Assembly (NCBI GenBank): GCA_025800395.1
Contig: JAOXRU010000017.1
Span: 1 to 64,000, forward strand
Direction: 5' to 3'
Length of the DNA stretch: 64,000 bases
DNA from: Flavobacteriaceae bacterium
GTDB lineage: Bacteria; Bacteroidota; Bacteroidia; Flavobacteriales; Flavobacteriaceae
The notes beneath the pieces are model-generated. The model saw nothing but the letters and a program-made list of their open reading frames with translations. It was not told the DNA's origin and did no database searches. Every line of letters starts with the position of its first letter. Position 1 is the stretch's first letter. The translations under genes and the position numbers were made by a program. Shown piece after piece: positions 35,544-64,000 of the stretch.

Positions 35544-35593
35544 GATACTAAGTGTAAAAAACGAACGTTTAACCTAGAGATGAAGCATACGAT

Positions 35594-36040: not shown

Positions 36041-36112
36041 TCTAAAGAAGATAGTCTATATTTTGGTAAAAAGGTTTTCTGTCGAATATTCTTATCGCTT
36101 CAACCGTTAAGT

Positions 36113-36144
36113 TTTGAATCAATAATTGGAGGAAATTATCTTTG
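36113..36144 (+). promoter_or_regulatory. Bacteroidota-type promoter of the OmpA gene
   Basis: TTTG at 36113-36116, a 20-base spacer, then TATCTTTG at 36137-36144 match the Bacteroidota consensus well. The start site would be near 36151, giving a leader of about 26 bases before the ATG at 36177. With only 22 bases between the OmpA stop and the first MBOAT gene, this promoter might also feed the start of the polysaccharide locus. Confidence 0.7.
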
Positions 36145-36176
36145 AACGGATTGATAATAGTAACTCCAAATAGAAC

Positions 36177-37325: not shown

Positions 37326-37347
37326 TTCTTCAAAGACTAAACTAAGT

Positions 37348-38781: not shown

Positions 38782-38784
38782 GTT

Positions 38785-39711: not shown

Positions 39712-39754
39712 ATATAGAATTTTATCTAAACTAAAAAACAATTGATCGAATTTA

Positions 39755-39786
39755 GTTGCTGTAGCTTCTGCAAGCAGATAGATTTG
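39755..39786 (+). promoter_or_regulatory. Candidate promoter before MBOAT 2
   Basis: GTTG at 39755-39758, a 20-base spacer and TAGATTTG at 39779-39786 resemble the Bacteroidota promoter, with an imperfect -33 box. The leader to the ATG at 39828 would be about 35 bases. A second TAnnTTTG (TAAATTTG) at 39795-39802 lacks a -33 box. This would let the second MBOAT/SGNH pair be expressed separately from the first. Confidence 0.45.
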
Positions 39787-39827
39787 TAAGGAACTAAATT
39801 TGAATTTAACCGATTAAACTACTTTTC

Positions 39828-41282: not shown

Positions 41283-41287
41283 TCGTT

Positions 41288-42229: not shown

Positions 42230-42264
42230 ACCTAGTTTAAAGAGAACCACTACTAAGAAAAAAA

Positions 42265-43509: not shown

Positions 43510-43533
43510 GAAAATAAAAACGAAATATCAATA

Positions 43534-44508: not shown

Positions 44509-44569
44509 GGAGGAAAAAAGCAGCTAAGTATAGCAAATAATTAACATAAAAACCAGATCCTTTCACCTA

Positions 44570-45850
44570 GTGCAAGGAACAAAAGTTTCAGGATTGACTA
44601 AAATCAATATTAAACCAAACATACGTAGGCATCCATTTTATAGAAAGGAATTTATAAAAGTATGGAGCGACTATTTTTTAAAAAAGAACCAAGAACCATT
44701 GTCATTTAGATCTTTGGGGCCTTTGCACTTTTTTAAACATTCGAAATTATCCTTGTATACCAATATCGGGAAAAATATTACTAATGGAAATATCTATCAG
44801 ATAGATCCAGAGGCGACGGACTATAGCGGGAAGAGTTTTCTGTTGTATGATATACCTTCCTATCTTCAAAAAGAACCAGAGCGCAAACACCAGCGTTTGG
44901 CTATTAAAAAAATACCGCAATATAAAGGGTATTTATCCGATTTGGATGGATTCGATAGTCTGGATGCTTTTATGCAACACAAGTTTTCGGCCAAAAGCCG
45001 AAACAATATTCGTAAATGGCGAAAAAAACTCTATAATAATTTTGAGATTGACTTCAAGGTTTATAGGCAAGAAGTAGACGAAACAACCTACCATAAGATG
45101 TTTGATGCCTTACTTGATCTTATACAAAAACGTTGGGGCGAATTGGGCATGCAAAACGATATAGTGGTAAACAAAGCTTATTATAGAGACTTGGGTTATA
45201 GCATGATTAAAGAAGGAAGCGCAGCCCTCTATGTTTTATCTGACAATGGTAAACCAATCGCTATATCGTTGAGCTTTTTATCCGAAACGGAATTGTTTTT
45301 TGCAATCACGACTTTTGATACAGATTTTCGTAGATATAATTTAGGTCATATGCTGATTATGCATATGTTGGAATGGTGTATAGAAAACAATATAAGAATT
45401 TTTGATTATTCAAAAGGCACCTATGACTATAAAATTCGCTGGGCAACCAAAGAATATGTGTTTGAAAACCACCTGATTTATGATACCAAGAAAATACGAT
45501 CGATATTGGTTTCCAGAGTTCTTTTTTATATGTTTTCTTTTAAACAGTTTTTGAGAGAGAAGGAGGTGAATTTGTTGTTTTCCCGACTGAAATACTATCT
45601 CAAAAATGAAAAACCGAAAAAGGAGCAAATCCTTACCCAAAAAATGGATGAAGAATGGATGCTAAAACTGCAACTCGAAGAAATTCCGTACACGCATAGA
45701 GAATATGATTTGTTACGTGGTTTGATTTTTGACCTCATTTTTTCCAAGCCACAGGCAGCTGTAAATGTAAAATTATATCGCCAAAAAGACAAGTTAGATT
45801 CCTATGTTATTTCTGGAAAAGATTTGTGTGTGAGCGTTCAAATTCAATAG
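44570..45850 (+). CDS. GNAT/FemAB-like acyltransferase 2 (Acetyltransf_6 type)
   Basis: A 426-residue paralogue of the protein at 42265. Shared blocks include 'NIGKNITNG', 'QYKGYL', 'RRYNLGHMLIMHMLEW', 'DYSKGTYDYKIRW' and 'YVFENHLIYD'. The track start is a GTG at 44570; a TTG at 44594 is an alternative, and alignment with the paralogue suggests conserved sequence begins only at 'RRHPFYRKEF', near residue 19. No ATG is available near there. The C-terminal ends of both proteins carry a stretch 'FSKPQ' or 'YSKPQ' followed by Val/Leu-rich sequence. Function is as uncertain as for its relative. Confidence 0.66.
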   Translation: MQGTKVSGLTKINIKPNIRRHPFYRKEFIKVWSDYFLKKNQEPLSFRSLGPLHFFKHSKLSLYTNIGKNITNGNIYQIDPEATDYSGKSFLLYDIPSYLQKEPERKHQRLAIKKIPQYKGYLSDLDGFDSLDAFMQHKFSAKSRNNIRKWRKKLYNNFEIDFKVYRQEVDETTYHKMFDALLDLIQKRWGELGMQNDIVVNKAYYRDLGYSMIKEGSAALYVLSDNGKPIAISLSFLSETELFFAITTFDTDFRRYNLGHMLIMHMLEWCIENNIRIFDYSKGTYDYKIRWATKEYVFENHLIYDTKKIRSILVSRVLFYMFSFKQFLREKEVNLLFSRLKYYLKNEKPKKEQILTQKMDEEWMLKLQLEEIPYTHREYDLLRGLIFDLIFSKPQAAVNVKLYRQKDKLDSYVISGKDLCVSVQIQ

Positions 45851-46018
45851 AAGTTGTAGGACGAAAAAAATACGATTTAGTCGTTTTTATTGTAAGGATA
45901 CGTGGGGAATATATAAGTTTGTTAGAGAAGGGATTATGATTCTTATGAATTTCAGTAACAACTTTTGAATCATTTTCTTTATCAATGAACTAGTGTAACT
46001 ACTTAAATTAGGGATACC

Positions 46019-47161
46019 ATGAGTTTGCGTTACCCAATGCGTTTGGAAATTTTTAAAAGAAAATCTTCACAAAAATTTATACCCGAAATAGATGCATTGC
46101 GCTTTTTGGCAATTATGCCTGTGATGATAGTACATTTTAGTGGCTCTTTTTTGGAATATAATAGCTTTTTTGAAGTTGAGGCAATGCAAAATCATTGGTT
46201 GCGCCAACTTTTGTTACAAGGGAACTACGGAGTACATTTGTTTTTTGCTATTAGTGGCTTTATACTTACTTTGCCATTTATTGGAAATGAAGAGGACTTG
46301 TCTAGTGTTTCGTGGAAGAAGTATTTTTTGAGAAGGCTTATACGCATCGAGCCACCTTATATTATTGCTATTAGCATATTTTTGGTAGTACATATTGTGT
46401 TGCAGCAGCAAGAACTTATGTTCTTAATAAAAAGTTATTTGTCTTCTTTTTTCTATATACACAATATTGTGTATGACCATGGCTCTTATATATTACCTGT
46501 TGCATGGAGTTTGGAAATAGAGGTGCAATTTTATTTACTCATGCCGTTATTGTTATTGTTGCTCAAATGGAGGAAAGCTTTTGTTTGGCGTTTGTTGATT
46601 TATGCTTTCCTATTTTACAGTTGTTTGAATATTGAACTCTTTCCATTTTTGGAACTCAATGATATTATGATCTTCTTTTTGGGGGGAATAGTAGCGGCAG
46701 ATGTGTACAAAAATGTACAATTACCAAAGAGTGGGATTTGGGATATTGTATTTCTAGTTGCAATTACAGCGTTTTTTATGATAAATATCAAATGGTTGCG
46801 ATTTTTCACCTTGTTTTTAACCATAACTTCCGTTTTTCACTTGGTACACCTCAAACGTATTTTGCAAAACTCGGTTATAACGACCATAGGAGGCATGTGT
46901 TATAGTTTATATTTGCTGCATTATCCGCTATATCATTTATTTTCCAAAGCTTTTGGGAATAGCCTCACAATCTTTGGTGTATTTGAATGGGATTTGCTTC
47001 TACAAACCTTAATTTTTGTGCCATTTTCTATTTTTTGTATTTCTTTTTATTTTCTTTGGGTAGAAAAACCATTTATGATATGGAGTCAAAGAATGAGCAA
47101 AAAACTTGGATCAAAATCTCAGAAGTCAAAATATAGGGCTAGGACATTAAAAACGATGTAA
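46019..47161 (+). CDS. Acyltransferase 3 family membrane protein (OafA/YrhL-like) A
   Basis: A 380-residue membrane protein with about ten transmembrane segments. The start of the domain, 'IDALRFLAIMPVMIVHFSG', carries the conserved Arg and His used for acyl transfer. 'LLRRLIRIEPPYIIAI' type sequence (here 'FLRRLIRIEPPYI') and 'AWSLEIEVQFYLLMPL' complete the family pattern. OafA-type proteins O-acetylate O-antigens and capsules without a separate SGNH protein; no SGNH domain is fused here. The gene is preceded by a 168-base gap and followed by 579 bases without a gene before the convergent third MBOAT/SGNH pair. Confidence 0.88.
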   Translation: MSLRYPMRLEIFKRKSSQKFIPEIDALRFLAIMPVMIVHFSGSFLEYNSFFEVEAMQNHWLRQLLLQGNYGVHLFFAISGFILTLPFIGNEEDLSSVSWKKYFLRRLIRIEPPYIIAISIFLVVHIVLQQQELMFLIKSYLSSFFYIHNIVYDHGSYILPVAWSLEIEVQFYLLMPLLLLLLKWRKAFVWRLLIYAFLFYSCLNIELFPFLELNDIMIFFLGGIVAADVYKNVQLPKSGIWDIVFLVAITAFFMINIKWLRFFTLFLTITSVFHLVHLKRILQNSVITTIGGMCYSLYLLHYPLYHLFSKAFGNSLTIFGVFEWDLLLQTLIFVPFSIFCISFYFLWVEKPFMIWSQRMSKKLGSKSQKSKYRARTLKTM

Positions 47162-47740
47162 TAAGCTACTAGCATATCCAAAATGCTGAAGTGTGCATTA
47201 TGCTGGTTTATATATAGATGGCGTTTTTTGAGCTTACCAATAACAATCACATAGTAAATATTAATACCATTTCTATTCTGATATTCCCTTAAAAGAAATA
47301 GATGATTTTTTTTCTGAAATAGAAAGGCAAAAGGCTGTTTATTGGGGTTTTTAAGCTAGAAATTATATAAGTACATGAATGCTTATAGTTTTTGGATAAT
47401 TGTGCTTGTTTAGTTTGAAGAATCAATCTCTTTCTTTTTTGGTCTATAACAACAAGTGGAGGAGTTACAATTTAGGAATCTCACTCATTGTTCGATAGGA
47501 GACGAATAATTTTGATTGTACTTTCTTTTATTTGCTTATAAAAATAGGGCTCTAATTGTGATCTTCAGTAGGTCTTACCGATTAGTTTTTTTATGTTAAA
47601 TGCGGATATAATATTTTTTCCAACTAAACTGCAGCAGTATCGGTATATTTGTCCAATTAGTAAAAAAAATGTTAGGAATAAGAAATTGTATATACAATAC
47701 CGCTATAAGTTTTTACATTGGAAGTTTTGTAGGTACCATT
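47162..47740. other. Gene-free stretch between convergent genes
   Basis: 579 AT-rich bases separate the OafA-like gene from the convergent SGNH 3 gene. The only structure I can support is the dispersed repeat copy B at 47266-47303. Short ORFs here (for example 47593-47859) have no recognisable content and overlap SGNH 3 antisense. No RNA gene or clear terminator was identified. Confidence 0.6.
47266..47303 (+). repeat. Dispersed intergenic repeat, copy B
   Basis: 38 bases beginning ACCATTTCTATT and ending AAGAAATAGAT. The reverse complement of 9117-9153 matches it at 34 of 37 aligned positions plus one single-base gap. Both copies lie between convergent genes and are far from each other, which suggests a family of short intergenic repeats in this genome. 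Confidence 0.6.
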
Positions 47741-48685
47741 TTATGGTTCTAAAAACATTTCCAAATCCTTTTGGAGAAGCTTCGAGAAAATCTGCGCTCC
47801 TTCATCAGACAGATGGGTGTAATCCTTCCACAATTGGTGTTGATTTATGGTATCTATAGCGTCTATAGCATCTATATAATTTCGATATTCTATGTCCAAC
47901 GAAGCAAAAAGAGCCGTAGTTTGTGCCTGAACATTGGGGTCAACTTTGCTCAACGATGGGGATGTGAAAAACACCAACTTACTGCCAAGACTCTTGGCTT
48001 TTCCTTGTATATTTTTGATAATGGAGACCATATTTGGATTGGGAATAGGGTTTTCTTGGATTCCCATATTGTAAAGCAAGTCGTTTTCCTTTCGCATTTT
48101 AGAAAATATTTCTATTTGCGTTGCGGTAGGATGTATAGGCTCGTAGCCAACGGTATCGAAGTTTGTCTGCTTGAATAAGGCGTTTTTTACAATAGTAAAA
48201 ACCAAGCCATTGTATGCATATCCTTTGAAGAGTTCGGAGAGCCTGTAGTCTTCTTTGTAATGTTCTTTTATGTAATGTTCAATAGCAGGCGAAACATCGG
48301 CTTTGAATAGTAGTGACAAAGCATCGTCTCCAGTATAATTTGGGTTGTACAAACTGTTGTGGTCTATATGTACCAAAAGAAGTGGGTTGTTGGTTTTGAG
48401 GGTTTGAATAAGCGCATCCGAATACGCCAAATTGGTGCCGTCTACACCAATATTAAAACTGTTTTTGGAAGAAAGCTGTGATGGATTTACGTGATGCGAG
48501 GCTCTAGAATTTCCAAATATGAGGATTTGAGCAGCATCTTTTCTTGCAAAAAAAGCATTTACCTTACCCACACCATTACCAGTAAATACATTTTTTTCAA
48601 TCTGTTGTATGCCATAAAAGGCAATACGATCTACCAGCATAAAACAAATTAAAATTCCAAGTGCAAGAGAAATTGACTTTTTCAT
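47741..48685 (-). CDS. SGNH-type protein 3, partner of MBOAT 3 (GNS variant)
   Basis: A 314-residue protein with an N-terminal membrane anchor ('SLALGILICFMLV') and an SGNH/DltD-like periplasmic domain. Block I reads 'IFGNSRASHH': Ser60 is retained but the Asp of G-D-S is Asn. 'LWKDYTHLSDEGAQ' near the C-terminus carries the catalytic Asp-x-x-His. It differs from SGNH 1 and 2 in both blocks, placing it in another subgroup. It is encoded 5 bases downstream of MBOAT 3 on the minus strand. Probable role: transfer of the acyl group brought by MBOAT 3 to a glycan. Confidence 0.72.
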   Translation of the reverse strand: MKKSISLALGILICFMLVDRIAFYGIQQIEKNVFTGNGVGKVNAFFARKDAAQILIFGNSRASHHVNPSQLSSKNSFNIGVDGTNLAYSDALIQTLKTNNPLLLVHIDHNSLYNPNYTGDDALSLLFKADVSPAIEHYIKEHYKEDYRLSELFKGYAYNGLVFTIVKNALFKQTNFDTVGYEPIHPTATQIEIFSKMRKENDLLYNMGIQENPIPNPNMVSIIKNIQGKAKSLGSKLVFFTSPSLSKVDPNVQAQTTALFASLDIEYRNYIDAIDAIDTINQHQLWKDYTHLSDEGAQIFSKLLQKDLEMFLEP

Positions 48686-48690
48686 AGGTT

Positions 48691-50088
48691 TTAAAATTGA
48701 AAATAGATGAAATTAGATGCGCTCGAATAGAACAATAAGGTGTTGATAATTATGAAAGTGACCAATCCAATATATAAAGGAGCTTTTAAAGTACTTCCAA
48801 ATTGTTCTAGTTGATGGTCTCTTTTAAAAAGAAAGATGTCAAAGCTAATGGCTAAAATAAGCCCATACACGGTAGTAGCAAATATGGTGGTGTCTCCCAA
48901 GTATGGCATGGCGTATCCATTGCTAAATAACTTGCCGAGTATGAGGCCGCTATCTTCTAAAGATAAGGCTCGGAAAAATATCCAAATGAGGGTAACCATT
49001 GTAAATACCACTACATTGTTTAAAAACTTATAGCGATTGGGAATCCAACCAAATCGTTTTTCTATCCCCAAAAGTATCCCATGTATGGCGCCCCAAATCA
49101 CAAAATTCCATGAACTACCGTGCCATAGACCTCCTAGTAGCATGGTGAGAAATAGATTGCGATATTGCATAAGGATGCCATTTCTATTGCCGCCAAGTGG
49201 AATATAAAGATAGTCGCGTAGCCATGAAGAAAGCGAAATATGCCATCTTCTCCAAAATTCGGTGATGGAGGATGAAAAATAGGGGAGATTGAAATTTCTT
49301 TTAAAATCAAAACCGAGTAATTTGGCTGTTCCGATGGCAATATCCGAATAGCCGCTAAAATCGAAGTAAATTTGGAAGCTATACAGAAAAACTGCCATGG
49401 CTATGGTAGAACTATTGTGAATCTCTGGATTATTGTAAATACTATCTACGAGCGAGCCAATAGAGTCGGCAACAACAACTTTTCTAAAAAATCCAACTAC
49501 AATTTGAAACAAACCATTTTGAAATCTTTCGTGCGACCACCTCCGTTTGTGCGCTATCTGTGGAATCAAATTGGAAGCTCTTTCTATAGGCCCAGCTACC
49601 AACTGAGGAAACAAGCTTACAAATGTGGCGAAAACCACAAAGTCATTGGTGGGTTTCAAATTACCTCTATAAATATCTATAGAATAAGACATAGTTTGAA
49701 AGGTGAAAAACGAGATACCAACAGGCAAAATGATCTGCAATGTAGAATGGGACATCTCGTAGCCAAACATATTCCACAAATCGATCCAAGAATCTATAAA
49801 GAAATTGAAGTACTTGAATATTGCTAATAATCCTAAATTCGCAAAAATGCTGACTTGCAGATAGCGTTTTTTATGTTTTTCGGATTGGTGTATTGCCAAG
49901 CCTAGGTAATAATCTAAGATACTAGAAAAAGCAATAAGGAATAAGAAACGCCAGTCCCACCAGCCATAAAATACATAGCTTGCAATGAGCAACAATACAT
50001 TCTGAATTTTTATACTTTTATGAAAACTCCAATATAGTACAAAAACTAATGGAAAGAATATAAGGAATACGGTGCTATTAAATAACAT
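48691..50088 (-). CDS. MBOAT family O-acyltransferase 3 (AlgI-like)
   Basis: A multi-pass membrane protein of 465 residues from the ATG at 50088. The track starts two codons earlier, but MBOAT 1 begins 'MLFNSLEF' and this one 'MLFNSTVF', so the second Met fits better. 'QLVAGPIERASNLIPQ', 'FDFSGYSDIAIG', 'RRWHISLSSWLRDYLYIPLGG' and 'LWHGSSWNFVIWG' (catalytic His) are present and it ends 'FIYFQF'. It and SGNH 3 are inverted relative to the rest of the locus, so this pair is transcribed separately from the divergent gap shared with the lyase gene. Confidence 0.9.
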   Translation of the reverse strand: MLFNSTVFLIFFPLVFVLYWSFHKSIKIQNVLLLIASYVFYGWWDWRFLFLIAFSSILDYYLGLAIHQSEKHKKRYLQVSIFANLGLLAIFKYFNFFIDSWIDLWNMFGYEMSHSTLQIILPVGISFFTFQTMSYSIDIYRGNLKPTNDFVVFATFVSLFPQLVAGPIERASNLIPQIAHKRRWSHERFQNGLFQIVVGFFRKVVVADSIGSLVDSIYNNPEIHNSSTIAMAVFLYSFQIYFDFSGYSDIAIGTAKLLGFDFKRNFNLPYFSSSITEFWRRWHISLSSWLRDYLYIPLGGNRNGILMQYRNLFLTMLLGGLWHGSSWNFVIWGAIHGILLGIEKRFGWIPNRYKFLNNVVVFTMVTLIWIFFRALSLEDSGLILGKLFSNGYAMPYLGDTTIFATTVYGLILAISFDIFLFKRDHQLEQFGSTLKAPLYIGLVTFIIINTLLFYSSASNFIYFQF

Positions 50089-50618
50089 GAACAATTAAGT
50101 TGTTTGGAGGGCTAAAGATATTTCGATTTAGAGAATATTCTTCAACTATCCAGTCAAATTCCAAAATTTTAGTTGAAATACCATATTGGGAAGGCATGAG
50201 CGGGCTATTTGCATCGGAGAAATGCGCCAGTATTCGTTATAAGGAAAATAGCTAATTTGCTTTGTTTTAGTCTTTAAAAAGCGTTTGTTCTCTATAAAAA
50301 CTATTTAAAATCCTATTTTTCTGGTATAAAAACGGTAAAAATATGGATTCTAGGGAAAAGTAATACCAAATAGGAATCTGGAAGGGAATAGAATGGAATT
50401 CAAAATCCGTGTTTCTAATTAGAATTTTTGTATTTTTACTGTAAATAGTGCATTTCATCGAATATATTGTTAAAAAACTGCAAAAAAACTCGTTGAAGGA
50501 ATCTATTTCTTCGTTTAATGACGTAAATGAGATAAATTGTTTAAAAAAAATCGTTTTGAAAAAAACCTCAACAATCATAAAACAGAAAAAAAATCACATT
50601 AAACTTAACCTCATTCTT
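50089..50618. other. Divergent intergenic region between MBOAT 3 and the lyase gene
   Basis: 530 AT-rich bases with no convincing gene. It must contain the divergent promoters for MBOAT 3/SGNH 3 and for the pectate-lyase-like lipoprotein, but I found no full TTTG-N19/20-TAnnTTTG match. The track ORF 50448-52178 extends into it by 57 codons; these are Lys- and Ile-rich, precede the signal peptide and are probably not translated. A weak resemblance to the dispersed repeat is seen at 50361-50394. Confidence 0.5.
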
Positions 50619-53651: not shown

Positions 53652-54644
53652 ATGACACCGACTTTTACATTAGATAAAGAAAACAAGGTTTTAGTTACAG
53701 GAGGAGCAGGTTTTATTGGTTCCAATTTGTGCGCTGCCTTATTGGATAATGGCAATACTGTAGTTTGTTTAGACAATTTTGCCACTGGAAAAAGAGAAAA
53801 TATAACTCCCTTTTTGGACAATCCCAATTTTGAACTCATCGAAGGAGATATACGAAATTTAGAAATGTGTAAAAAGGCGGTTGTAGGTACTGACTTTGTG
53901 CTGCATCAGGCTGCATTAGGATCGGTACCTCGTTCTATAAACGATCCGATTACTTCCAACGAGGTAAATGTTTCTGGTTTTCTAAATATGTTGGTGGCAT
54001 CAAGAGATGCTGGCGTGAAACGTTTTGTATATGCCGCAAGTTCCTCTACCTATGGCGATTCTAAAGGATTGCCCAAGGTGGAAGACGTGATAGGAAAGCC
54101 TTTATCCCCATATGCAATTACCAAATATGTGAATGAACTATATGCCGATATTTTTGCCAAGACCTATGATATGCAATGTATAGGTTTGCGATATTTCAAC
54201 GTATTTGGCCGTCGACAAGATCCCAATGGAGCTTATGCTGCGGTAATTCCGAAGTTTGTCATGCAATTTATGAAGTACAATGCGCCTACTATCAATGGAG
54301 ATGGTTCTTTTTCTAGAGACTTTACATATATAGATAATGTTGTACAAATGAATATGCTTGCTATTGCAACAGACAATCAAGCTGCTGTAAATCAGGTTTA
54401 TAATGTGGCTTTCGGAGAGCGAACCACTTTAAACGAATTGGTTCATTTGCTAAAAACCTATTTGAGTGAATTGGATCCGAAAATTGGGGAAGTAGAAGTT
54501 TTGTATGGTCCAAATCGTCAGGGCGATGTTCCTCATTCTTTAGCATCTATAAACAAGGCCAAAGAGTTATTGGGCTACGACCCACAATTTGATATCAAAA
54601 CTGGCTTGAAAGAAGCGGTTCAATGGTATTGGAAACATTTGTAA
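53652..54644 (+). CDS. UDP-N-acetylglucosamine 4-epimerase-like SDR (WbpP/TviC group)
   Basis: A 330-residue extended short-chain dehydrogenase. '[14 protein letters not shown]' binds NAD, 'AASSSTYGD' gives the catalytic Ser/Thr, and '[11 protein letters not shown]' the Tyr-x-x-x-Lys pair. '[15 protein letters not shown]' and '[23 protein letters not shown]' are characteristic of the WbpP/TviC/Gne group, which interconverts UDP-GlcNAc and UDP-GalNAc or the corresponding uronic acids. The dehydrogenase of the WbpO/TviB kind lies 65 bases downstream, the same pairing found in loci that make UDP-GalNAcA, such as that for the Vi antigen. Group assignment is confident; which nucleotide sugar is epimerised is inferred. 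Confidence 0.85.
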
Positions 54645-54709: not shown

Positions 54710-55999
54710 ATGACCTCAACAACAAATAAAGTAGCCATCATTGGTCTTGGCTACGTAGGCTTGCCATTGGCTAGATTGTTTGCCACCAAATTCCCAGTAA
54801 TAGGTTTTGATATTAATAAAGGGCGTGTAGAAGAATTGCGCTCTGGAGTAGATAGCACCCTAGAAGTAGAAGACCATGTGCTACAAGCAGTATTGGTAAA
54901 AGATACCAATATGGAAAAAGGCTTGTATTGTACCGATCAACTTGAGGATATTGCAGATTGCAATATCTATGTGGTTACTGTACCTACCCCTGTAGATAGT
55001 ACCAATCGCCCAATACTTACTCCTTTGTACAAAGCTAGTGAGACAGTAGGTCGGGTTTTGAAAAAAGGAGATATCGTAGTATACGAGTCTACTGTATACC
55101 CTGGAGTTACAGAAGAAGAATGTGTTCCAGTATTAGAAAGGGTGAGTGGACTTCAGTTCAATAAAGATTTTTATGTGGGCTACTCTCCAGAACGTATCAA
55201 TCCTGGAGATAAAGAACATACCGTGGAGAAGATACTGAAAGTCACTTCGGGTTCGACACCAGAAATTGGAAAAATAGTAGACGATCTATATGCTTCGGTA
55301 ATTGAAGCTGGAACACATTTGGCTCCTACAATCAAAGTAGCGGAGGCAGCTAAAGTGATAGAAAACTCCCAAAGAGATATTAATATTGCATTTGTAAATG
55401 AATTGGCCAAAATCTTCAACTTGATGGAAATTGATACCCATGATGTATTGAATGCGGCTGCTACCAAATGGAACTTTTTGCCATTTAAACCAGGTTTGGT
55501 TGGAGGGCATTGTATAGGTGTAGATCCTTATTATTTGGCACAGAGAGCTCAAGAGTTTGGATACCATCCAGAAATCATCCTGGCCGGGCGTAGAATGAAC
55601 GATGGTATGGGAAAATATGTAGCCAGCGAGGTAATTAAACTCATGGTGCAAAACGATATTAAAATAAAGGGATCCAAAATATTATTTTTAGGAATTACTT
55701 TTAAAGAAAATTGTCCTGATGTACGCAATACCAAAGCGATTGATGTAATTCGCGATTTGAAAGAATACGGTACCGAGGTCACCGTTTACGATCCATGGGC
55801 TTCGGTAGAAGAAGTAAAAGAAGAATATGGTATTGATATGGTAAAAAAAGTACCAAATCAAACCTACGATGCCGTTGTATTGGCAGTTTCCCATAAAGAA
55901 TATTTAGAACTCAATATCGATCAGTTTATGAATGATCATGGTATTATTTATGATGTGAAAGGGTTTTTAACGTCCGATAAAATAAGTGGGAGACTGTAA
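54710..55999 (+). CDS. Nucleotide-sugar dehydrogenase (WbpO/TviB-like, UDP-HexNAc 6-dehydrogenase)
   Basis: A 429-residue NAD-dependent dehydrogenase that oxidises C6 of a UDP-sugar to the carboxylate. 'VAIIGLGYVGLPLARLFA' is the Rossmann motif, 'VPTPVDSTNRPILTPL' and 'ESTVYPGVTEEECVPVLE' follow, and 'GGHCIGVDPYYL' carries the catalytic Cys268. The overall wording is closer to the WbpO/TviB type, acting on UDP-GlcNAc or UDP-GalNAc, than to UDP-glucose dehydrogenase. With the neighbouring epimerase, the expected product is UDP-GalNAcA. The flippase gene starts 3 bases after the stop. The product is the likely acidic building block of this polysaccharide and the potential acceptor for ATP-grasp amidation. 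Confidence 0.88.
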   Translation: MTSTTNKVAIIGLGYVGLPLARLFATKFPVIGFDINKGRVEELRSGVDSTLEVEDHVLQAVLVKDTNMEKGLYCTDQLEDIADCNIYVVTVPTPVDSTNRPILTPLYKASETVGRVLKKGDIVVYESTVYPGVTEEECVPVLERVSGLQFNKDFYVGYSPERINPGDKEHTVEKILKVTSGSTPEIGKIVDDLYASVIEAGTHLAPTIKVAEAAKVIENSQRDINIAFVNELAKIFNLMEIDTHDVLNAAATKWNFLPFKPGLVGGHCIGVDPYYLAQRAQEFGYHPEIILAGRRMNDGMGKYVASEVIKLMVQNDIKIKGSKILFLGITFKENCPDVRNTKAIDVIRDLKEYGTEVTVYDPWASVEEVKEEYGIDMVKKVPNQTYDAVVLAVSHKEYLELNIDQFMNDHGIIYDVKGFLTSDKISGRL

Positions 56000-56002: not shown

Positions 56003-57325
56003 ATGTGGCATAAACTCAAGCAATATTTAAAGAATCCTTTAATTGTCAACTTACTCATTGTTGGAGGTATCACTTTAGGAGTGAAGATCTTGGGCATGTT
56101 TAAGGAGATGCAAGTGGGGAGTAGCTTTGGTATGGGCCAATTTTTGGATACCTATGCTTTGGCGGTTCTTATACCTACTTTTATCGAATCGGTTTTTATT
56201 GGGGCAATTCGAAATATTTTTATTCCCAATTATATTGAAGAATTGCGAAACAAAGGCAATATCAAAGGTTTTCAATCTTTGGTCTTGCTCATTATAGTTG
56301 GAATTTGTTTGTTTTTTATTGGTATATTGTTTTTTAGTAGCCAGTATTTTTTACCGAGTATTTTTCCAGATCACGAATTGGCGTTTTATGCACTGATACA
56401 TAAGCAACTATTGGTGCTTCTACCATGTATATTGCTTTGGGGCTTAGACAGCTATTTGAGTGCGCTTTTGGAAATAAAGCAAAAATTCTTGTTCTCTAGT
56501 GTGAGCGCTGCATATATTGCTATAGTCACCCTTTTGTGTCTCTATTTCTTTAGAGATGTTATGGGAGACTATGTATTGGTTGGAAGTATGCTTATTGGTA
56601 CCTTTTTTAGTTTTATCCATCTGCTTAGCGGTAACTTATATTGGAAACTTTTGCATTTTGGACCAATTAAACTCAACAACAATATGCGAGTGATGCTGCA
56701 ACAGTTGCCTGCCAAAACGATCTCTGGTTTGCTAACTGCGGTCAATCCTGTGGTAGATCAGTTTTTTGCGTCTTCTTTGGTGGCAGGTTCGGTTATCGCA
56801 TTGAGCTATGGTGAAAAAATACCTGCCTTTATGATTTCGATAGCCATGATTGCTCTGGGTAAGGTACTATTGCCGCATTTCTCAGAATTGGTAACTGAAA
56901 ATATTCATAAAGCCTATCGCGAATTGTTTCGTATTCTCAAAATAACCTTTTTGTTGTCCATGGTATTGGTTGTTGGTTTGGTATTATTGTCCGAACCCAT
57001 TATTCAACTATTGTTTGAAAGAAATGAATTTACCACAGAAGATACCGCTATAGTGAGTAAAATACAGATGCTGTTGCTTTTGCATGTGCCATTTTTCTTA
57101 CTTACTCGTATTTTGGTTAACTTCTTGACTAGTATAAATAAAAACAGTTTTATGGCTTGGGCAGCATTTATCACCGTGTTCACCAACTTTATACTCAATT
57201 ATCTTCTAATCGATAGTATGCAAGTTTACGGTTTGGCTTTGAGTACTAGTTTGGTATTGATTCTCAATAGTCTTTTGTTTTTGTGGTATACGTATGATGC
57301 ATATAAAAAATTGAAACCAGCATGA
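56003..57325 (+). CDS. MurJ/MviN-like lipid-linked oligosaccharide flippase (Wzx role)
   Basis: A 440-residue protein with about 12 to 14 hydrophobic segments. 'LGVKILGMFKEMQVGSSFGMG' near the N-terminus and 'NPVVDQFFASSL' in the middle are of the MVIN/MurJ type in the MOP superfamily. In polysaccharide loci such proteins do the job of Wzx, flipping undecaprenyl-linked repeat units to the periplasm. It follows the dehydrogenase by 3 bases and overlaps the next glycosyltransferase by 4 bases (ATGA). The presence of a Wzy-like protein two genes on supports a Wzx/Wzy pathway. The role as Wzx instead of MurJ is inferred from context. Confidence 0.8.
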   Translation: MWHKLKQYLKNPLIVNLLIVGGITLGVKILGMFKEMQVGSSFGMGQFLDTYALAVLIPTFIESVFIGAIRNIFIPNYIEELRNKGNIKGFQSLVLLIIVGICLFFIGILFFSSQYFLPSIFPDHELAFYALIHKQLLVLLPCILLWGLDSYLSALLEIKQKFLFSSVSAAYIAIVTLLCLYFFRDVMGDYVLVGSMLIGTFFSFIHLLSGNLYWKLLHFGPIKLNNNMRVMLQQLPAKTISGLLTAVNPVVDQFFASSLVAGSVIALSYGEKIPAFMISIAMIALGKVLLPHFSELVTENIHKAYRELFRILKITFLLSMVLVVGLVLLSEPIIQLLFERNEFTTEDTAIVSKIQMLLLLHVPFFLLTRILVNFLTSINKNSFMAWAAFITVFTNFILNYLLIDSMQVYGLALSTSLVLILNSLLFLWYTYDAYKKLKPA

Positions 57326-58401
57326 AAATAGATTTTATCATCAATAGTTTAGATGCTGGTGGGGCAGAAAGGGTGCTTAGCTTGGTAGCGGATGAGTTGG
57401 CCAATAGAGAGCACCAGATACGCGTGATTACTCTCAACAACGAATTAGCAGATGCTTATGTTTTCGACAATAATGTAGAACGAATACGTTTGCAAATCAA
57501 TAGGGTTAGGAACCATAGTCTCAACAATGGTTACAATCTGTATAGATTTTATAAAGAGAGATCGAATCGCCCCGATGTTGCGGTTGCGTTTATCTCCGAA
57601 ACTGCATTTTTGGCAACCATTGCTGTAAAGCTGTTGCGGTCTATCCCATTAGTGGTATCCGAACACACCAATTTTGGGAATGGTAGCTGGTTTCGGAAAA
57701 ATATTATTCGAAAACGGATTTACAAATGGGTAGATAGGGTGTTGGTTTTGACGCATTTCGACAAAAACTTATATCAGAAGAATAACATAGCTACAGAGGT
57801 AATGTACAACCCATGTTCTTTTGCTAAGAACCAGAATACGACTACAAGAGAAAAAGTATTATTGGGTGTTGGAAACCTCAATAAATACCATATCAAAGGC
57901 TATGACAATCTTATTCGTACTGCAGCGCCTGTTTTGCGAAACCATCAAGATTGGAAAATTCGATTGATAGGGAAAAAAGATGCAGCCAGTCAGGAAGTGC
58001 TAGTAGACTTGGCAAAAAAAATGAGCATAGAGAAACAAATAGAACTATATGGTTTTAGCTCAGAAGTAGCCAAACTCATGCGAGAGGCTGAGGTTTTTGT
58101 TCTATCTTCTCGCACCGAAGGATTGCCTATGGTATTATTGGAGGCGCTTTCGCAAGGCACAGCTTGTATAGCTTTTGATTGCCGTACTGGACCTTCGGAG
58201 ATAATTGAAAATGGGAAAAATGGCATCTTGGTCCCCGATCAGGATATGGATGCTATGCAAAACGCCATAGAACGTATGATAACCGATGATGATTTGCGTC
58301 ATAAATACCAGGTGTTGGCACCAAATTCTATTGCGAAATTTGAACTAGAAAAGGTAACAGACCACTGGGAAAGAGTATTAAACCAAGTAATCGAAAAATA
58401 G
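57322..58401 (+). CDS. GT4 family glycosyltransferase A
   Basis: A 359-residue GT-B fold enzyme. 'DAGGAERVLSLVADEL' at the N-terminus is the GT4 acceptor-side signature, and 'EGLPMVLLEALSQGTACIAFD' holds the E-x7-E motif that binds the sugar nucleotide. It presumably adds one sugar to the growing lipid-linked repeat unit on the cytosolic side. Translation is coupled to the flippase gene, and the polymerase gene starts 3 bases after its stop. Donor and linkage cannot be predicted. Confidence 0.9.
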   Translation: MKIDFIINSLDAGGAERVLSLVADELANREHQIRVITLNNELADAYVFDNNVERIRLQINRVRNHSLNNGYNLYRFYKERSNRPDVAVAFISETAFLATIAVKLLRSIPLVVSEHTNFGNGSWFRKNIIRKRIYKWVDRVLVLTHFDKNLYQKNNIATEVMYNPCSFAKNQNTTTREKVLLGVGNLNKYHIKGYDNLIRTAAPVLRNHQDWKIRLIGKKDAASQEVLVDLAKKMSIEKQIELYGFSSEVAKLMREAEVFVLSSRTEGLPMVLLEALSQGTACIAFDCRTGPSEIIENGKNGILVPDQDMDAMQNAIERMITDDDLRHKYQVLAPNSIAKFELEKVTDHWERVLNQVIEK

Positions 58402-58403: not shown

Positions 58404-59657
58404 ATGCAGTTGAATAGAATCATAGGGCTTTGTTTTATTTTTCCATTTGTATTTAGTGCATGTGGTTTGCAAGGTTGGTTGATCCTGTTTTTGGGGCTAA
58501 GCATGGCACAATTGATTACTTATATGACTTTGGTAACTCCTATATTGGGAACCATTTTATTGTTTACTTTTAAAGAGAATAAAGCTTTTTCTCCATTGGC
58601 TAGAAATTGGATATTGTTTTATCTGGTTTACTATATACTAGCGGTGATAGCTAGTTTTTATCATATGTGGCCTATCAATTTTATGTCCTCCTTTTTCTCT
58701 GTCGTTTATGCGCTTACATTTATGGTGTTTTTTCGCTTTGAAGAGTTCCAAAAACTCTTTGCCAATACGGCAATGATTTCTTTTACTATAGCCAATGTTA
58801 CACTAATCATTTTTCAGATCTACCAAATAGATTATGATACCGTCAATCTTCAAGACGATATAGAACATGGTGTAGAAAGAGCCCAAGGAGTGTATGGTGA
58901 TGCCAACAACGCAGCTTTGGTTTGTATTTTGGGCTTTGTGTTTTTATATATGAAGTTTATTCCAAAAAACATTTGGCAAAAAACACTAAAATTGACCTTA
59001 TTGATCGTAAGCTTTTATGCGCTTTTACTCACATTGTCAACTACAGGATTGTTAGCATTTATTTTGGTGTTTGCGTTGCTCAACTACAAATGGTTTACCA
59101 AAAATCGTTTGTTGTTGATGCTCATAATGGCTCCAATAGTATATACTTTGCTCTTGCAGATAGAAATTTTGACAGCGCATCTCGATCTGTCGGTGCACCA
59201 ACAACACAAAATTCGAAATTTGGTGAATTTGCTGAGTTTCAATATGCAAGAAGTGGATTTTTCGGGTAGAAGCGAATTGGTTGAAAATCTAATGGTTTAC
59301 CTAAGGGAAAATCCATTTTTTGGAAGAGGTTTAGATTTTGGATTAAAAGCCAGAGTGCACAATACCTTTTTATATATATGGGCCGATGCAGGTATATTAG
59401 CTTTGATCGTATTTGTAAGTATGCTGCTGATTTATTTCAAAAATATATTGTTTGCCAGTATGTCGGTAAAAATCTTTTCGGCAAGTATTATGGTGCCTTT
59501 GGTAATTTTTATGGCTAGTTTGCAGACCATAATAAACCAACCTTATTTGATGCCAGTTTTTATATATGTAGCCTATATATTGACAGAAGATAAAAATAGA
59601 GTTTTTAAAACCCCTAATGTTCAGAGTTTTTCCTATGAGAAAAAAAATAAAAAATAG
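58404..59657 (+). CDS. O-antigen polymerase/ligase-like membrane protein (Wzy role)
   Basis: A 417-residue protein with about ten to eleven hydrophobic segments and one larger periplasmic loop before the last three, which holds 'FSGRSELVENLMVYLRENPFFGRG'. This is the O-antigen ligase/Wzy-C pattern (R near the loop start and a following 'HNTFLYIWADAG'). In this position, next to a flippase, it most likely polymerises repeat units. A ligase (WaaL-like) is the alternative. The start of the first ATP-grasp gene lies within its last 23 bases. Confidence 0.82.
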   Translation: MQLNRIIGLCFIFPFVFSACGLQGWLILFLGLSMAQLITYMTLVTPILGTILLFTFKENKAFSPLARNWILFYLVYYILAVIASFYHMWPINFMSSFFSVVYALTFMVFFRFEEFQKLFANTAMISFTIANVTLIIFQIYQIDYDTVNLQDDIEHGVERAQGVYGDANNAALVCILGFVFLYMKFIPKNIWQKTLKLTLLIVSFYALLLTLSTTGLLAFILVFALLNYKWFTKNRLLLMLIMAPIVYTLLLQIEILTAHLDLSVHQQHKIRNLVNLLSFNMQEVDFSGRSELVENLMVYLRENPFFGRGLDFGLKARVHNTFLYIWADAGILALIVFVSMLLIYFKNILFASMSVKIFSASIMVPLVIFMASLQTIINQPYLMPVFIYVAYILTEDKNRVFKTPNVQSFSYEKKNKK

Positions 59658-60573
59658 CATATTTGAGAATACTTTTTTGTTCAATTTGGCTTTGCCTCTG
59701 GCACATTTGTATTATTTTTTCTTGTTGAAGAAATACCTGCCTGCCAAATGGTTTTTGAAATCTAAATTTTCGCAAGTAATGGGGCATGCCCCCAACTTTG
59801 ATTCTCCAATAACGATTAATGAAAAATTAAATTGGCTCAAATTAAATAGCACTTCCACCAAAGATGGTCGATTTGCCGACAAATACAGGGTGCGAAGCTT
59901 TATTAAAGAGTTGTGGGGTGAGGAGTATTTGATTCCTCTTTTGTACGAAACAAAGAATGCAGCAGATATCCAACCTAAAAACTTACCAGATATCCCCTTT
60001 ATTATCAAAACCAACCATGATAGTTCTGGTGGTATAATTGTAATGGACAAAACGGATCCTACCATTAGCTGGACGATGATTCGAAATACGCTGCGTTGGA
60101 ATATGGCTTTTAATTATTATTGGAATGGAAGAGAGGTGCAATACAAAGAAGTAAAACCTCACATCGTAGTGGAACAATTGCTGTTCAATGAAAATGGAGA
60201 TATTCCAGAGGATTATAAATTGCATTATTTCAATGGCAAACTAGCAATAGTTCAGGTAGATACGGGTCGTATGAAAGATCACAAAAGAAATCTATATGAT
60301 AGCCAATGGAATCCCATAGAGTGTTCTTGGGAATATCCTGTGGGGGACTGGGAGAGTAGGCCAGAGCTTTTTGAAAATATGCGTATGTTGGGAGAAACTA
60401 TTGCCAAGGATTTTTCATATATACGAGTAGATTTTTACAATATAGGAGATAAACTCTATTTTGGAGAAATTACCTTTCATGCTGGTGGTGGTTTAGGACG
60501 TTTTTACCCTGCTAGTTTTGATGCCAAATTTGGTGAGATGTTGGTCTTGCCGATACAGAAAAAAGTTAGTTAA
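59635..60573 (+). CDS. TupA-like ATP-grasp protein 1
   Basis: A protein of 312 residues from the ATG at 59635. The track begins 6 codons earlier, but aligning with the paralogue at 60875 shows both begin 'M-x-K-x-x-K' and reach 'LP' at residue 21, so the later Met fits. 'LPDIPFIIKTNHDSSGG' is the ATP-binding core, and 'VEQLLFNENGDIPEDYKLHYFNGK' with 'RVDFYNIGDKLYFGEITF' gives the metal-binding acidic part, as in the ATPgrasp_TupA family. TupA of Bacillus is linked to teichuronopeptide synthesis. ATP-grasp enzymes join carboxylates to amines via acyl phosphate, so amidation of uronic acids is plausible here. Confidence 0.8.
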   Translation: MRKKIKNSIFENTFLFNLALPLAHLYYFFLLKKYLPAKWFLKSKFSQVMGHAPNFDSPITINEKLNWLKLNSTSTKDGRFADKYRVRSFIKELWGEEYLIPLLYETKNAADIQPKNLPDIPFIIKTNHDSSGGIIVMDKTDPTISWTMIRNTLRWNMAFNYYWNGREVQYKEVKPHIVVEQLLFNENGDIPEDYKLHYFNGKLAIVQVDTGRMKDHKRNLYDSQWNPIECSWEYPVGDWESRPELFENMRMLGETIAKDFSYIRVDFYNIGDKLYFGEITFHAGGGLGRFYPASFDAKFGEMLVLPIQKKVS

Positions 60574-60584
60574 GTATTATTTAA

Positions 60585-60875
60585 ATGCAGCAATATTATA
60601 AATTTATTCAACCTAATTTTGAGTCGTGTGTTTCACAACAAAGGCATAGTTGCTTGTCTTCCTTGTGGCTTGCATATAGTGCCTTTATTTATTATTGTTT
60701 TTATAAGTTGTCATTTGCTGTAATAAATAAGTCGCATGTATCGATTATTATTCCCTTACCTATGGAATGCATTTCTTGGGCTCCAAGCAAGAAATTAAAA
60801 AGAGCAACAGCCATACCAGGTAATAGAAGACTTTGGAATGGATTACAATTTATAACCACAAAAAATAACTTCTGA
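60585..60875 (+). CDS. Short ORF between the two ATP-grasp genes, possible gene remnant
   Basis: A 96-codon ORF that fits exactly between its neighbours: it starts 11 bases after the first ATP-grasp gene and its TGA overlaps the ATG of the second (TGATG). I do not recognise the product. The first 60 residues include a short hydrophobic, Cys/Tyr-rich stretch ('FIYYCFYKLSFAVI'), the rest is basic. The spacing favours real translation or a former gene, while the composition looks little like a normal protein. It might be a decayed enzyme left from a longer gene. No family can be named. Confidence 0.3.
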   Translation: MQQYYKFIQPNFESCVSQQRHSCLSSLWLAYSAFIYYCFYKLSFAVINKSHVSIIIPLPMECISWAPSKKLKRATAIPGNRRLWNGLQFITTKNNF

Positions 60876-61819
60876 TGGAGAAAGATTTGAAGTACTATTT
60901 GTTTTCTCAACCCATTTTGTTCCGATTGTTTTTGCCAATGGCAAAAGTGTATTATTATTTTTTACTAAAAAAATGGATGTCCCCAAAAGAGTATTTGTTA
61001 GAGCGATATGAGAAATGGATGAAACGTTCCCCCAATTGGGAAAACCCCGAACGATGGAGCGATAAGCTTTACTGGCTAAAACTATATCATACCAAACCCG
61101 AATTTGGAATGTATGCCGATAAGTTTAGGGTGCGCGATTTTATCGCGGAAAAATGGGGAGAAGAACATCTTATTCCACTATTGTATGAAACAGATGAGCC
61201 CGACAATATTCGACCAGAGAATTTACCAGATATACCCTTCATTATAAAAACCAACCATGATAGTTCGGGCGGTATTATTGTTCGAGACAAATATGATAAA
61301 GAACACAATTGGACGGCCATTCGAAATACTTTGCGTTTCAATATGGCATTTAATTATTATTGGAATGGTAGAGAAGCACAATATAGGGATATCAAACCTC
61401 ATATCATTGTTGAAAAACTATTGTTGGATGAGCAAGGAAATATCCCAATGGATTATAAATTGCATTTTTTCAACGGAAAACTAGCTATAACACAGGTCAT
61501 CCGGAGAAAAGGGGAAGATTTCACCATTACATTCTACACAAAAGAATGGGAGAAAGTACCTTGTAAAATGGTATTCGAACAAGATATATTTACCCCAGAA
61601 CCAAAAAACTTTAAGAAAATGATAGCCCTCGGGGAGAAAGTTGCCAAGGGTTTCCCCAATCTCAGAGTTGATTTTTATGATGTAGGAGGTAAGCTTTATT
61701 TTGGGGAACTCACGTTTCATATTGGTGGGGGTAACATTCGATTTGAACCCGATGCCTATGATTTCGAATTTGGAAAGATGTTGGAATTACCAAAAAAAGA
61801 AAATCTACAACCCGTTTAA
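60875..61819 (+). CDS. TupA-like ATP-grasp protein 2
   Basis: A 314-residue paralogue of the protein at 59635, similar along its full length. Matching blocks include 'LPDIPFIIKTNHDSSGG', 'NTLRFNMAFNYYWNGRE', 'MDYKLHFFNGK' and 'RVDFYDVGGKLYFGELTFH'. Differences are concentrated in the middle third after residue 205, where the acceptor or amine might be chosen. The start overlaps the stop of the 96-codon ORF by one base. Two such enzymes side by side suggest two substrates, perhaps two amino acids or two uronic acid positions. Substrates are inferred, not shown. Confidence 0.8.
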   Translation: MEKDLKYYLFSQPILFRLFLPMAKVYYYFLLKKWMSPKEYLLERYEKWMKRSPNWENPERWSDKLYWLKLYHTKPEFGMYADKFRVRDFIAEKWGEEHLIPLLYETDEPDNIRPENLPDIPFIIKTNHDSSGGIIVRDKYDKEHNWTAIRNTLRFNMAFNYYWNGREAQYRDIKPHIIVEKLLLDEQGNIPMDYKLHFFNGKLAITQVIRRKGEDFTITFYTKEWEKVPCKMVFEQDIFTPEPKNFKKMIALGEKVAKGFPNLRVDFYDVGGKLYFGELTFHIGGGNIRFEPDAYDFEFGKMLELPKKENLQPV

Positions 61820-61827: not shown

Positions 61828-62886
61828 ATGAAGTCAAAAATAGTATTTGTTTTACCATCATTGGAAGCAGGTGGGGCCGAAAGGGTTTTGAGCTTTTTGG
61901 CAAAGCGTATCGATAGAACACGTTTTGAGCCCATCATGTTGGTTATCGGTAGTTCCAACAAAGTGGCCTATGATACAGGAGACGCCAAAGTGTGTTTTCT
62001 CAACAAATCGCGTTTGCTTTTTGCGATTCCAGCTTTTTTTGGCTTTTTGAGGAGAGAAAAACCCAAAGTAGTATTTAGTTCTATTGGACATCTCAATACT
62101 GCTGCAGGGCTCCTTTCCTTTTATTTTAGAAACACCAAATTTATTATACGAGAAGCTAGTGTAATTAGTAGCATAAGTCAATTTGGATCTAAGAGCTTTT
62201 TGTATGACAAACTTTCTAGTTTGGCTTTCAAAAAAGCCGATAGTATTGTTTGTCAGTCAAAAGATATGGAAATTGATTTCAAGAAATTATATTCGGTTTC
62301 AAACGATAAGGTACATGTGATTGGTAATCCGGTTACCATAGAAAGGCTTGCACGAACTCGCGCTCCAAAAACGGAGCAATTGCGTTTGATTACTATAGGT
62401 CGATTGAGCGCAGAAAAAGGCCATGAGCGGATTCTGAATAGCTTGTCCCAATTGGAAAGAGATTATCATTATACGATTATAGGCAGTGGAGATAAGGAAG
62501 CAGAAATAAAAAGCCATGTGAAAAGTTTAGGAATGACTTCTAAAGTAAGTTTTGTTTCCTATACCGACGATGTGGTTTCTTATCTTATTCAAAACGACTG
62601 GTTTTTGCAGGGTTCCTATGTAGAAGGATTCCCAAATGCCGTTTTGGAAAGCTGTGCTGTGGGAACACCTGTTTTGGCCTTTCCTGCACCAGGAGGAACG
62701 AAAGAAATCATAGAACAAGGTGTAAACGGATTTATCTTGGCCGACGAAAAAGCTTATGTGAAAAAACTGCAAAACCTGCCCAATCTCAATCCGGATATGG
62801 TTATCGAAAGTGTATACCAACGTTATGATAGTAAGGTGATTTTAGAAATATACGAAAAATTGCTATTGAATACTATAAATCAGTAA
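61828..62886 (+). CDS. GT4 family glycosyltransferase B
   Basis: A 352-residue GT-B enzyme. 'LPSLEAGGAERVLSFLAKRI' at the N-terminus, 'TIGRLSAEKGHERILNSLS' at the start of the donor domain and 'EGFPNAVLESCAVGTPVLAFPAPGG' with the E-x7-E motif mark it as GT4. It starts 8 bases after ATP-grasp 2 and ends 12 bases before the next glycosyltransferase gene, in the same transcript. Donor and linkage unknown. Confidence 0.9.
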   Translation: MKSKIVFVLPSLEAGGAERVLSFLAKRIDRTRFEPIMLVIGSSNKVAYDTGDAKVCFLNKSRLLFAIPAFFGFLRREKPKVVFSSIGHLNTAAGLLSFYFRNTKFIIREASVISSISQFGSKSFLYDKLSSLAFKKADSIVCQSKDMEIDFKKLYSVSNDKVHVIGNPVTIERLARTRAPKTEQLRLITIGRLSAEKGHERILNSLSQLERDYHYTIIGSGDKEAEIKSHVKSLGMTSKVSFVSYTDDVVSYLIQNDWFLQGSYVEGFPNAVLESCAVGTPVLAFPAPGGTKEIIEQGVNGFILADEKAYVKKLQNLPNLNPDMVIESVYQRYDSKVILEIYEKLLLNTINQ

Positions 62887-62898: not shown

Positions 62899-64000
62899 AT
62901 GAATAAAATGACTGAAGACAAACCCATACGCGTATTACAAGTGCTAGGCATGATGGATCATGGCGGTGCTGAAGTAATGGCAATGAATTATTACCGAGGA
63001 ATGGACAAGAGCAAGGTTCAGTTCGATTTCCTTTTACATTTTGAAGAAGCAGGTGTTTTTGATGAAGAAATACGAGCTATGGGAGGCAATATTTATATTA
63101 TGCCACGAATTTTGCCAGCCAATTATTTCAAATATAAAAAGGCATTAAAGCATTTTTTTGCCACCCACAAAGATTATGATATAGTGCACTCACATATCAA
63201 TGCTTATGGTACTTTTGTAATACAAGCTGCAAAGAAAGCTGGTATTCTAATTCGAATCTCACATTCCCATACTTCGATTACTCCTTGGTATAAAAAAATA
63301 TTCGAAAAGAATATCAATTTGGTAAGTACAGTTAAAGAAATAGTACAAAATTTGTTGAGACCTTCCTTGGTGCGCAATGCCACCGTGCACCTGGCATGTG
63401 GTGAAAAAGCTGGTAAATGGATGTATGGCTCAAAATCTAAAAATTTTATTGTAATAAATAATGCCATAGATGCCAAAAGATTTCGATGGGATGCTACCAA
63501 AAGAATAGCTAAGAAAAAAGAACTTGGTTTGGAGGGTATAGAACTAGTTGGTCATGTGGGGAATTTTAATGAAGCTAAAAACCACAAGTTCATTGTTCAA
63601 TGTTTTGCTAGTATGTTGCAAACAACCCCCAATCTCAAACTATTACTGGTAGGTGGTGGTGGACTTTTTGAAGAAATACAAGAAGAAGTCCAACAATTGG
63701 GAATCGATAATAAAGTATTGTTTTTAGGCTCTAGAAATGATGTGGACGAATTGCTGCAAGCTTTTGATTTGATGTTGTTTCCTTCTATTTATGAGGGACT
63801 ACCATTAACTTTGGTGGAGGCTCAGGCTGCAGGATTGCCAGTATTGGCTTCTGCCAATATCACTACAGAAATTGCCATAACCGATATACTTCGTTTTTTG
63901 CCATTGGCAGATGGTACGGAGGCTTGGGCTACAGCAGCAAGAAAACAAATGCAATTAGAAAGAAAAGATACTTTAAAGGCAATACAGCAGAGTGGCTATG
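62899..64000 (+). CDS. GT4 family glycosyltransferase C (3' truncated by the window)
   Basis: An open frame from the ATG at 62899 to the end of the window, 367 codons, absent from the track because it has no stop here. 'VLQVLGMMDHGGAEVMAMNYY' is a typical EpsF/GT4 start, 'HSHINAYGTFVIQAAKKAG' follows, and 'LFPSIYEGLPLTLVEAQAAGLPV' contains the E-x7-E motif. EpsF-like enzymes of this type often take part in exopolysaccharide synthesis. The gene is almost complete, since the family is about 370-390 residues long. The locus continues beyond the window. Confidence 0.9.
   Translation, partial: MNKMTEDKPIRVLQVLGMMDHGGAEVMAMNYYRGMDKSKVQFDFLLHFEEAGVFDEEIRAMGGNIYIMPRILPANYFKYKKALKHFFATHKDYDIVHSHINAYGTFVIQAAKKAGILIRISHSHTSITPWYKKIFEKNINLVSTVKEIVQNLLRPSLVRNATVHLACGEKAGKWMYGSKSKNFIVINNAIDAKRFRWDATKRIAKKKELGLEGIELVGHVGNFNEAKNHKFIVQCFASMLQTTPNLKLLLVGGGGLFEEIQEEVQQLGIDNKVLFLGSRNDVDELLQAFDLMLFPSIYEGLPLTLVEAQAAGLPVLASANITTEIAITDILRFLPLADGTEAWATAARKQMQLERKDTLKAIQQSGY

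Follow-up and report, generated by a model that had tools for sequence, protein, structure and literature searches.

A 64,000-nucleotide stretch of a Flavobacteriaceae bacterium genome (positions 1 to 64,000, forward strand, of contig JAOXRU010000017.1, assembly GCA_025800395.1; the window hereafter) carries two adjacent genes, T1 (59635..60573, + strand, 312 aa) and T2 (60875..61819, + strand, 314 aa), whose products are TupA-like ATP-grasp proteins. We consider it probable that both act as ATP-grasp amidoligases in the synthesis of a surface polysaccharide by a Wzy-type pathway, T2 being a duplicate with an altered loop. By analogy with assayed relatives, T1 likely amidates an acidic sugar that is already bound to a glycan. 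A distinct second specificity of T2 is plausible and is put forward tentatively.

Both proteins were compared with PF14305 (ATPgrasp_TupA), for which the curated cut-off is 25 bits. T1 scored 169 bits (E 1.7e-49, profile positions 1-240 of 241) and T2 scored 144 bits (E 5.5e-42, profile positions 2-239 of 241), and the two sequences align to each other without gaps at 54% identity. The open reading frame of T1 spans 59617-60573 and has a further in-frame ATG at 59617, and the start at 59635 fits the paralogue. T1 and T2 are both complete, real genes. No other PF14305 gene was found in the genome, and no NCBIfam model was found for either protein. With a Wzy_C polymerase upstream of T1 and a GT4 glycosyltransferase downstream of T2, the original prediction of two full-length ATPgrasp_TupA paralogues between a polymerase and a glycosyltransferase was confirmed.

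The AlphaFold models of T1 and T2 have a mean pLDDT (predicted local distance difference test) of 92.5 and 93.4, respectively. In Foldseek searches the T1 model matched D-Ala-D-Ala ligase (Ddl), synapsin, ArgX/LysX, PsnB and RimK, with the best E-value (4.2e-7) to Ddl, while the top match of the T2 model was the L-amino acid ligase RizA (E 4.2e-7), followed by RimK, LysX and Ddl. Structural comparison with characterised ATP-grasp ligases thus comes out in favour of the assignment for both copies, and most of the top matches are carboxylate-amine ligases. The Foldseek probability of the ATP-grasp matches was 1.00 with TM-scores (template modelling scores) of only about 0.3-0.46, which is expected because the core domains are shared and the N-terminal parts are different. 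Neither T1 nor the profile found a useful match in a sequence search of solved structures.

The residues K125, H128, E180, D193, K195, R264, D266, Y268, G277 and E278 are invariant in 79/79 relatives and are kept in T1 and T2, including the nucleotide lysine, the hinge Glu and the metal-binding Asp and Glu (K125, E180, D266 and E278, respectively). In an hhalign alignment to a flavobacterial Ddl, taken for its register only since the E-value of 0.2 is not significant, K125, E180, R264, D266, E278 and T280 fall on nucleotide or metal positions of Ddl. It can be seen that the ATP and metal residues (K125, E180, R264, D266, E278) have not been lost from either copy. The third metal ligand, Asn in Ddl, is Thr280 in T1 and T2 and also in 78/79 TupA relatives, so that, as far as the alignment tells, this replacement is a trait of the family and no defect of the two proteins.

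T1 and T2 form a sister pair in a tree built from 81 sequences, with a Shimodaira-Hasegawa-like approximate likelihood ratio support (SH-aLRT) of 100, and their end branches are 0.60 and 0.67, which indicates that their overall rates are similar. Identity between them is 48%, 73% and 39% in the first, middle and last third. The earlier statement that the copies differ most in the last third is therefore right in part: divergence has its peak at residues 209-240 and is concentrated at 217-240 (12% identity), whereas identity in the metal-binding strands at 265-288 is 71%. Gene conversion between T1 and T2 is not claimed: similarity is highest in the central block (81% at the DNA level, codons 145-168), yet third positions differ there too and the block is conserved throughout the family.

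The changes are unevenly shared by the two copies. Among conserved family columns from which one copy departs alone, T2 departs at 9 and T1 at 1 (p 0.02), and within residues 205-235 T2 is changed at 5 of the 7 conserved columns (hypergeometric p 3e-4). The TupA loop motif VD..R.....RN.Y...W (D209, R212, R218, N219, W232) is kept by T1 at 209-232 and is lost from T2, where the substitutions are D209I, R212K, R218I, N219T and W232M. Over the same loop stretch a homologue from Escherichia coli O167, which reads VDKNRFTSHTRTFFDRDW there, keeps the Asp and both Arg. Judged from the sequence alignment, the loop at 205-235 may correspond to the mobile loop of Ddl that closes over the active site. 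What sets the pair apart is the loss from T2 of a loop that nearly all relatives conserve, and such a loss would fit either a changed specificity or a weakened activity.

Alternatively, T1 may be the working amidoligase and T2 a duplicate that is weakened, inactive or regulatory and has no second specificity. The excess of lone departures in T2 and their clustering at the loop would be explained in this way, as would the retention of most of the loop motif even in the E. coli O167 homologue and the finding that, apart from T1, no T2-like orthologue above 47% identity occurs in 400 family genomes. However, T2 has all of the ATP and metal residues and an intact frame, its central third is 73% identical to that of T1, its model is well folded, and it lies 8 bp ahead of a GT4 gene. 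T2 therefore seems to have been under constraint since the duplication, and an impaired T2 is regarded as possible but unlikely. Duplication of TupA genes is also seen elsewhere: other genomes hold tandem pairs from older duplications, and in one case five TupA genes stand in a row behind a CDP-glycerol-transferase/epimerase-like gene (L103:1355-6248, G440). Such arrangements speak for diversification as a habit of the family.

The same gene row carries candidate enzymes for an acidic sugar. An SDR (short-chain dehydrogenase/reductase) epimerase (53652..54644, +) has its best NCBIfam match to TviC, the UDP-N-acetylglucosaminuronic acid (UDP-GlcNAcA) C4-epimerase (390 bits, below the cut-off of 760), and a nucleotide sugar dehydrogenase (54710..55999, +) has its best match to TviB, the UDP-GlcNAc 6-dehydrogenase (552 bits, just under the cut-off of 592; the TIGR03026 subfamily was passed). 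Because of these best matches the donor is likely UDP-GlcNAcA or UDP-N-acetylgalactosaminuronic acid (UDP-GalNAcA). The operon thus likely makes a UDP-hexosaminuronic acid, as had been predicted for the locus, with both genes below the NCBIfam cut-offs.

The last gene of the same operon, just outside the window at contig positions 64056-65954 (L003:56-1954), encodes an AsnB/WbpS-like glutamine amidotransferase (PF00733 274 bits, GATase_7 153 bits), whose protein start, MCGI, is that of an N-terminal Cys glutaminase, and its start overlaps the preceding GT4 gene by 13 bp. Orthologues of this protein (about 60% identity) were found in 10 of 30 genomes with a TupA of the close subfamily, each within 6 kb of TupA, compared with 46/369 other genomes (Fisher p 0.004, with the relatedness of the genomes uncorrected). 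Amide-forming enzymes of two kinds that are unrelated to each other, TupA-like ATP-grasp and AsnB-type, are therefore encoded at the locus.

T1 and T2 might amidate another carboxylate, such as that of Kdo (3-deoxy-D-manno-octulosonic acid), a nonulosonic acid or an acidic substituent, leaving the hexosaminuronic acid to the AsnB-type enzyme alone. In another Bacteroidota family the neighbours of a TupA gene are SIS-CBS and DAHP-synthase-like genes, similar to kdsD and kdsA (L132:2176-6893, G711), which hints at a Kdo-related acceptor in that branch, and the TupA pairs of Lacinutrix, Oceanihabitans and Xanthomarina have no PF03721 gene on their contig, though most of them adjoin AsnB. Here, by contrast, no Kdo or nonulosonate genes were seen in the operon, in which the TviB/TviC-like genes are the only ones of an acid-sugar pathway, and the assayed TupA-like relatives use glucuronic acid (GlcA), so that another carboxylate is rather improbable. 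A glycosyltransferase-like or kinase-like role instead of amide ligation, to which the label 'glycosyl transferase' of some database records and the presence of synapsins and a phosphotransferase among the ATP-grasp fold matches might point, is highly improbable, as the assayed TupA-like members are amidoligases, the RefSeq family name is 'ATP-grasp fold amidoligase' and the top fold matches are mostly carboxylate-amine ligases.

The amidoligase role is best understood from the characterised relatives. Cj1438C of Campylobacter jejuni, which has a TupA-like ATP-grasp domain, joins the C6 carboxylate of GlcA by an amide to (S)-serinol-phosphate or ethanolamine-phosphate, and UDP-GlcA is no substrate of it (PMC11800379, PMC11800397). 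It follows that amidation comes after transfer to the chain. The same amidation, with serinol-phosphate, was reported for HS19.11C, where the next glycosyltransferase requires the amidated, dephosphorylated acceptor (PMC13276843). The substrate of T1 and T2 is thus, by analogy, probably a lipid-linked glycan rather than a UDP-uronate. UDP-uronic acids, which the original prediction had named for tests alongside lipid-linked glycans, need correction as candidate substrates, since the best-studied relative does not use its UDP-uronic acid. The attachment of amino acids to sugar carboxylates, which it had also proposed, is upheld as far as amidation of a uronate carboxylate is concerned (Cj1438C and HS19.11C, together with the residues, the fold, the operon and O167); an amino acid as the amine we can only infer, the characterised amines being amino-alcohol phosphates.

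We propose the following pathway. The TviB/TviC-like enzymes would make UDP-GlcNAcA or UDP-GalNAcA, and a glycosyltransferase would put the hexosaminuronic acid on the lipid-linked chain. T1 would then phosphorylate the C6 carboxylate with ATP and couple an amine of the amino acid, serinol or ethanolamine type, and the GT4 enzyme downstream would extend the amidated residue. In T2, as a local duplicate, the altered loop next to the active site would most likely change the amine or the acceptor. We infer the acceptor, the amine and the specificity of T2; amide formation on glycan-bound GlcA was shown by others, for homologues. Genes for serinol-phosphate or ethanolamine-phosphate were not seen, so the most likely partner is some common amine or amino acid. 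A further and doubtful extension is that three amides are formed on the hexosaminuronic acids of this one operon, namely that of T1, that of T2 with another amine or at another site, and a primary amide for which the AsnB-type enzyme would be responsible. If true, the product would be a chemically patterned, charge-masked polysaccharide, and the loop at 209-232 would read amine specificity.

Coupling to glycosyltransferases is consistent with this pathway. T2 ends 8 bp ahead of a GT4 gene (61828..62886, +; Pfam), the candidate transferase onto the amidated residue, and in many relatives a similar GT4, 36-44% identical to it, often lies a few bases downstream of TupA. In another Bacteroidota genome TupA and GT4 are in one frame of more than 1000 aa (L131:3-3059, -, G762), and in Croceivirga radicis a Wzx-like flippase and TupA share a 733-aa frame (L102:1203-3404, -), followed by an overlapping GT4. 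These fusions, each observed once and possibly in need of resequencing, are what one would expect of enzymes that work at the membrane on lipid-linked chains. When the genome of the window and one marginal match are not counted, the family occurs in 77 of 399 Flavobacteriaceae genomes sampled. TupA homologues also occur in 88 Klebsiella plasmid records and on several Brachyspira hyodysenteriae plasmids.

Several points weigh against the proposed role. First, the assayed TupA-like enzymes all lie outside the subfamily of T1 and T2, and the profile-profile comparison to Ddl is not significant on its own. Secondly, neither synthesis genes for serinol-phosphate or ethanolamine-phosphate nor phosphatase genes were found among the Pfam-scanned genes of the operon. 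Thirdly, the clustered changes in the loop mean that T2 might be inactive. Finally, a TviB-like dehydrogenase says little by being present, as 302 of 400 family genomes have one, and in 9 of 25 relatives no PF03721 gene lies near TupA on the same contig, partly because of contig ends. The closeness of the two genes is better evidence than presence: a TviB-like gene was found within about 25 kb of TupA in at least 18 of the 30 sampled genomes with a close-subfamily TupA.

The gene row itself runs on one strand from 52530 to contig position 65954 in the order acyltransferase, TviC-like epimerase, TviB-like dehydrogenase, MurJ-like flippase, GT4, Wzy, T1, T2, GT4, GT4 and AsnB-type amidotransferase. 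The flippase is a MurJ/MATE-like candidate Wzx (56003..57325, +; PF03023, 168 bits); it is followed by a GT4 (57322..58401, +; Pfam) and the Wzy-like O-antigen polymerase (58404..59657, +; Wzy_C, PF04932, 47.7 bits, cut-off 31.7), and the second GT4 behind T2 (62899..64000, +; Pfam) continues to contig position 64068. Gaps between genes are -23 to 65 bp except for the 301-bp spacer between T1 and T2 (60574..60874, 31.6% GC), in which neither a coding remnant of a third, decayed TupA nor a Bacteroidota -33/-7 promoter was detected.

Past the operon lie convergent genes (L003:2194-7464, -) for two GNATs, a sugar phosphotransferase (PF02397), a PseC-like aminotransferase and a GT4. An aminotransferase and a phosphotransferase are close to TupA in relatives too, and those found here may make the first sugar. 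Within the window, 34401-50094 is rich in acylation genes, with three MBOAT proteins, an AlgX-like protein, two FemAB-like GNATs, a deacetylase and an acyltransferase, and is possibly a second envelope polymer locus.

Amidation of uronic acids alters the charge and serology of bacterial surface glycans and the way in which phages or enzymes recognise them, and few genes have been assigned to it. Two sister enzymes set apart by one conserved loop offer a natural experiment on what determines amine or acceptor choice in TupA-like ligases, and the spread of the family suggests that amide-decorated polysaccharides are common in Flavobacteriaceae. Two amines at different uronates of one polysaccharide are known from Proteus mirabilis O27 and O28 (PMC10609480) and from a Vibrio exopolysaccharide that bears alanine and serine (PMC4663550), and a GalNAcA-D-alanine polymer was described from Microbulbifer (PMC3210612).

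Among known systems, the teichuronopeptide TupA of alkaliphilic Bacillus, to which the pair had been linked, is linked to T1 and T2 by the family name only (PF14305, 'TupA-like'), and no hint of its polyglutamate and Gram-positive wall context was seen in this locus. The WbpO/WbpP/WbpS pathway for GalNAcA and its primary amide in Pseudomonas aeruginosa and Helicobacter pullorum resembles the operon in UDP-HexNAcA synthesis and an AsnB-type amidotransferase; WbpS is, however, unrelated to ATP-grasp enzymes, and here both kinds are present. When WbpS is lost in H. pullorum, the residue stays unamidated and the chain is not extended from it (PMC6025236), which parallels the logic of the C. jejuni pathway.

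A second, independent link of TupA-like proteins to amidation is an O167-type cluster of E. coli, a wzx/wzy cluster in which a stand-alone TupA lies between glycosyltransferases and keeps the core residues of T1 and T2 along with most of the loop motif. Its 'ATP-grasp fold amidoligase' (WP_197278057.1) is 39% identical to T1 and is the sole amide-forming gene there. The type was assigned from the RefSeq names of wzx and wzy ('O167 family'), one strain being labelled O169, and PMC4663550 cites the O167 structure paper, with two others, on O-antigens to which amino acids are joined by amide bonds. A wider correlation with E. coli serotypes failed, as blastn finds only the O167-type gene. In contrast to the present locus, this cluster has a single TupA copy, no AsnB gene and other sugars (glf, ugd). 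It too lacks linked serinol-phosphate or ethanolamine-phosphate genes, which are therefore not essential to the type.

With Cj1438C and HS19.11C the pair shares the TupA-like ATP-grasp ligase, the setting in a locus for a surface polysaccharide that contains a uronic acid, and the coupling to a glycosyltransferase, and theirs amidates a glycan-bound carboxylate. In C. jejuni the ligase is fused to a GT2, the capsule pathway is of the ABC-transporter type and the cluster contains the serinol-phosphate or ethanolamine-phosphate genes, whereas here there are two stand-alone copies with GT4 neighbours, a Wzy pathway and a hexosaminuronate, and no such amine genes were seen. The type of enzyme is already known from Campylobacter, and T1 and T2 are useful rather than surprising.

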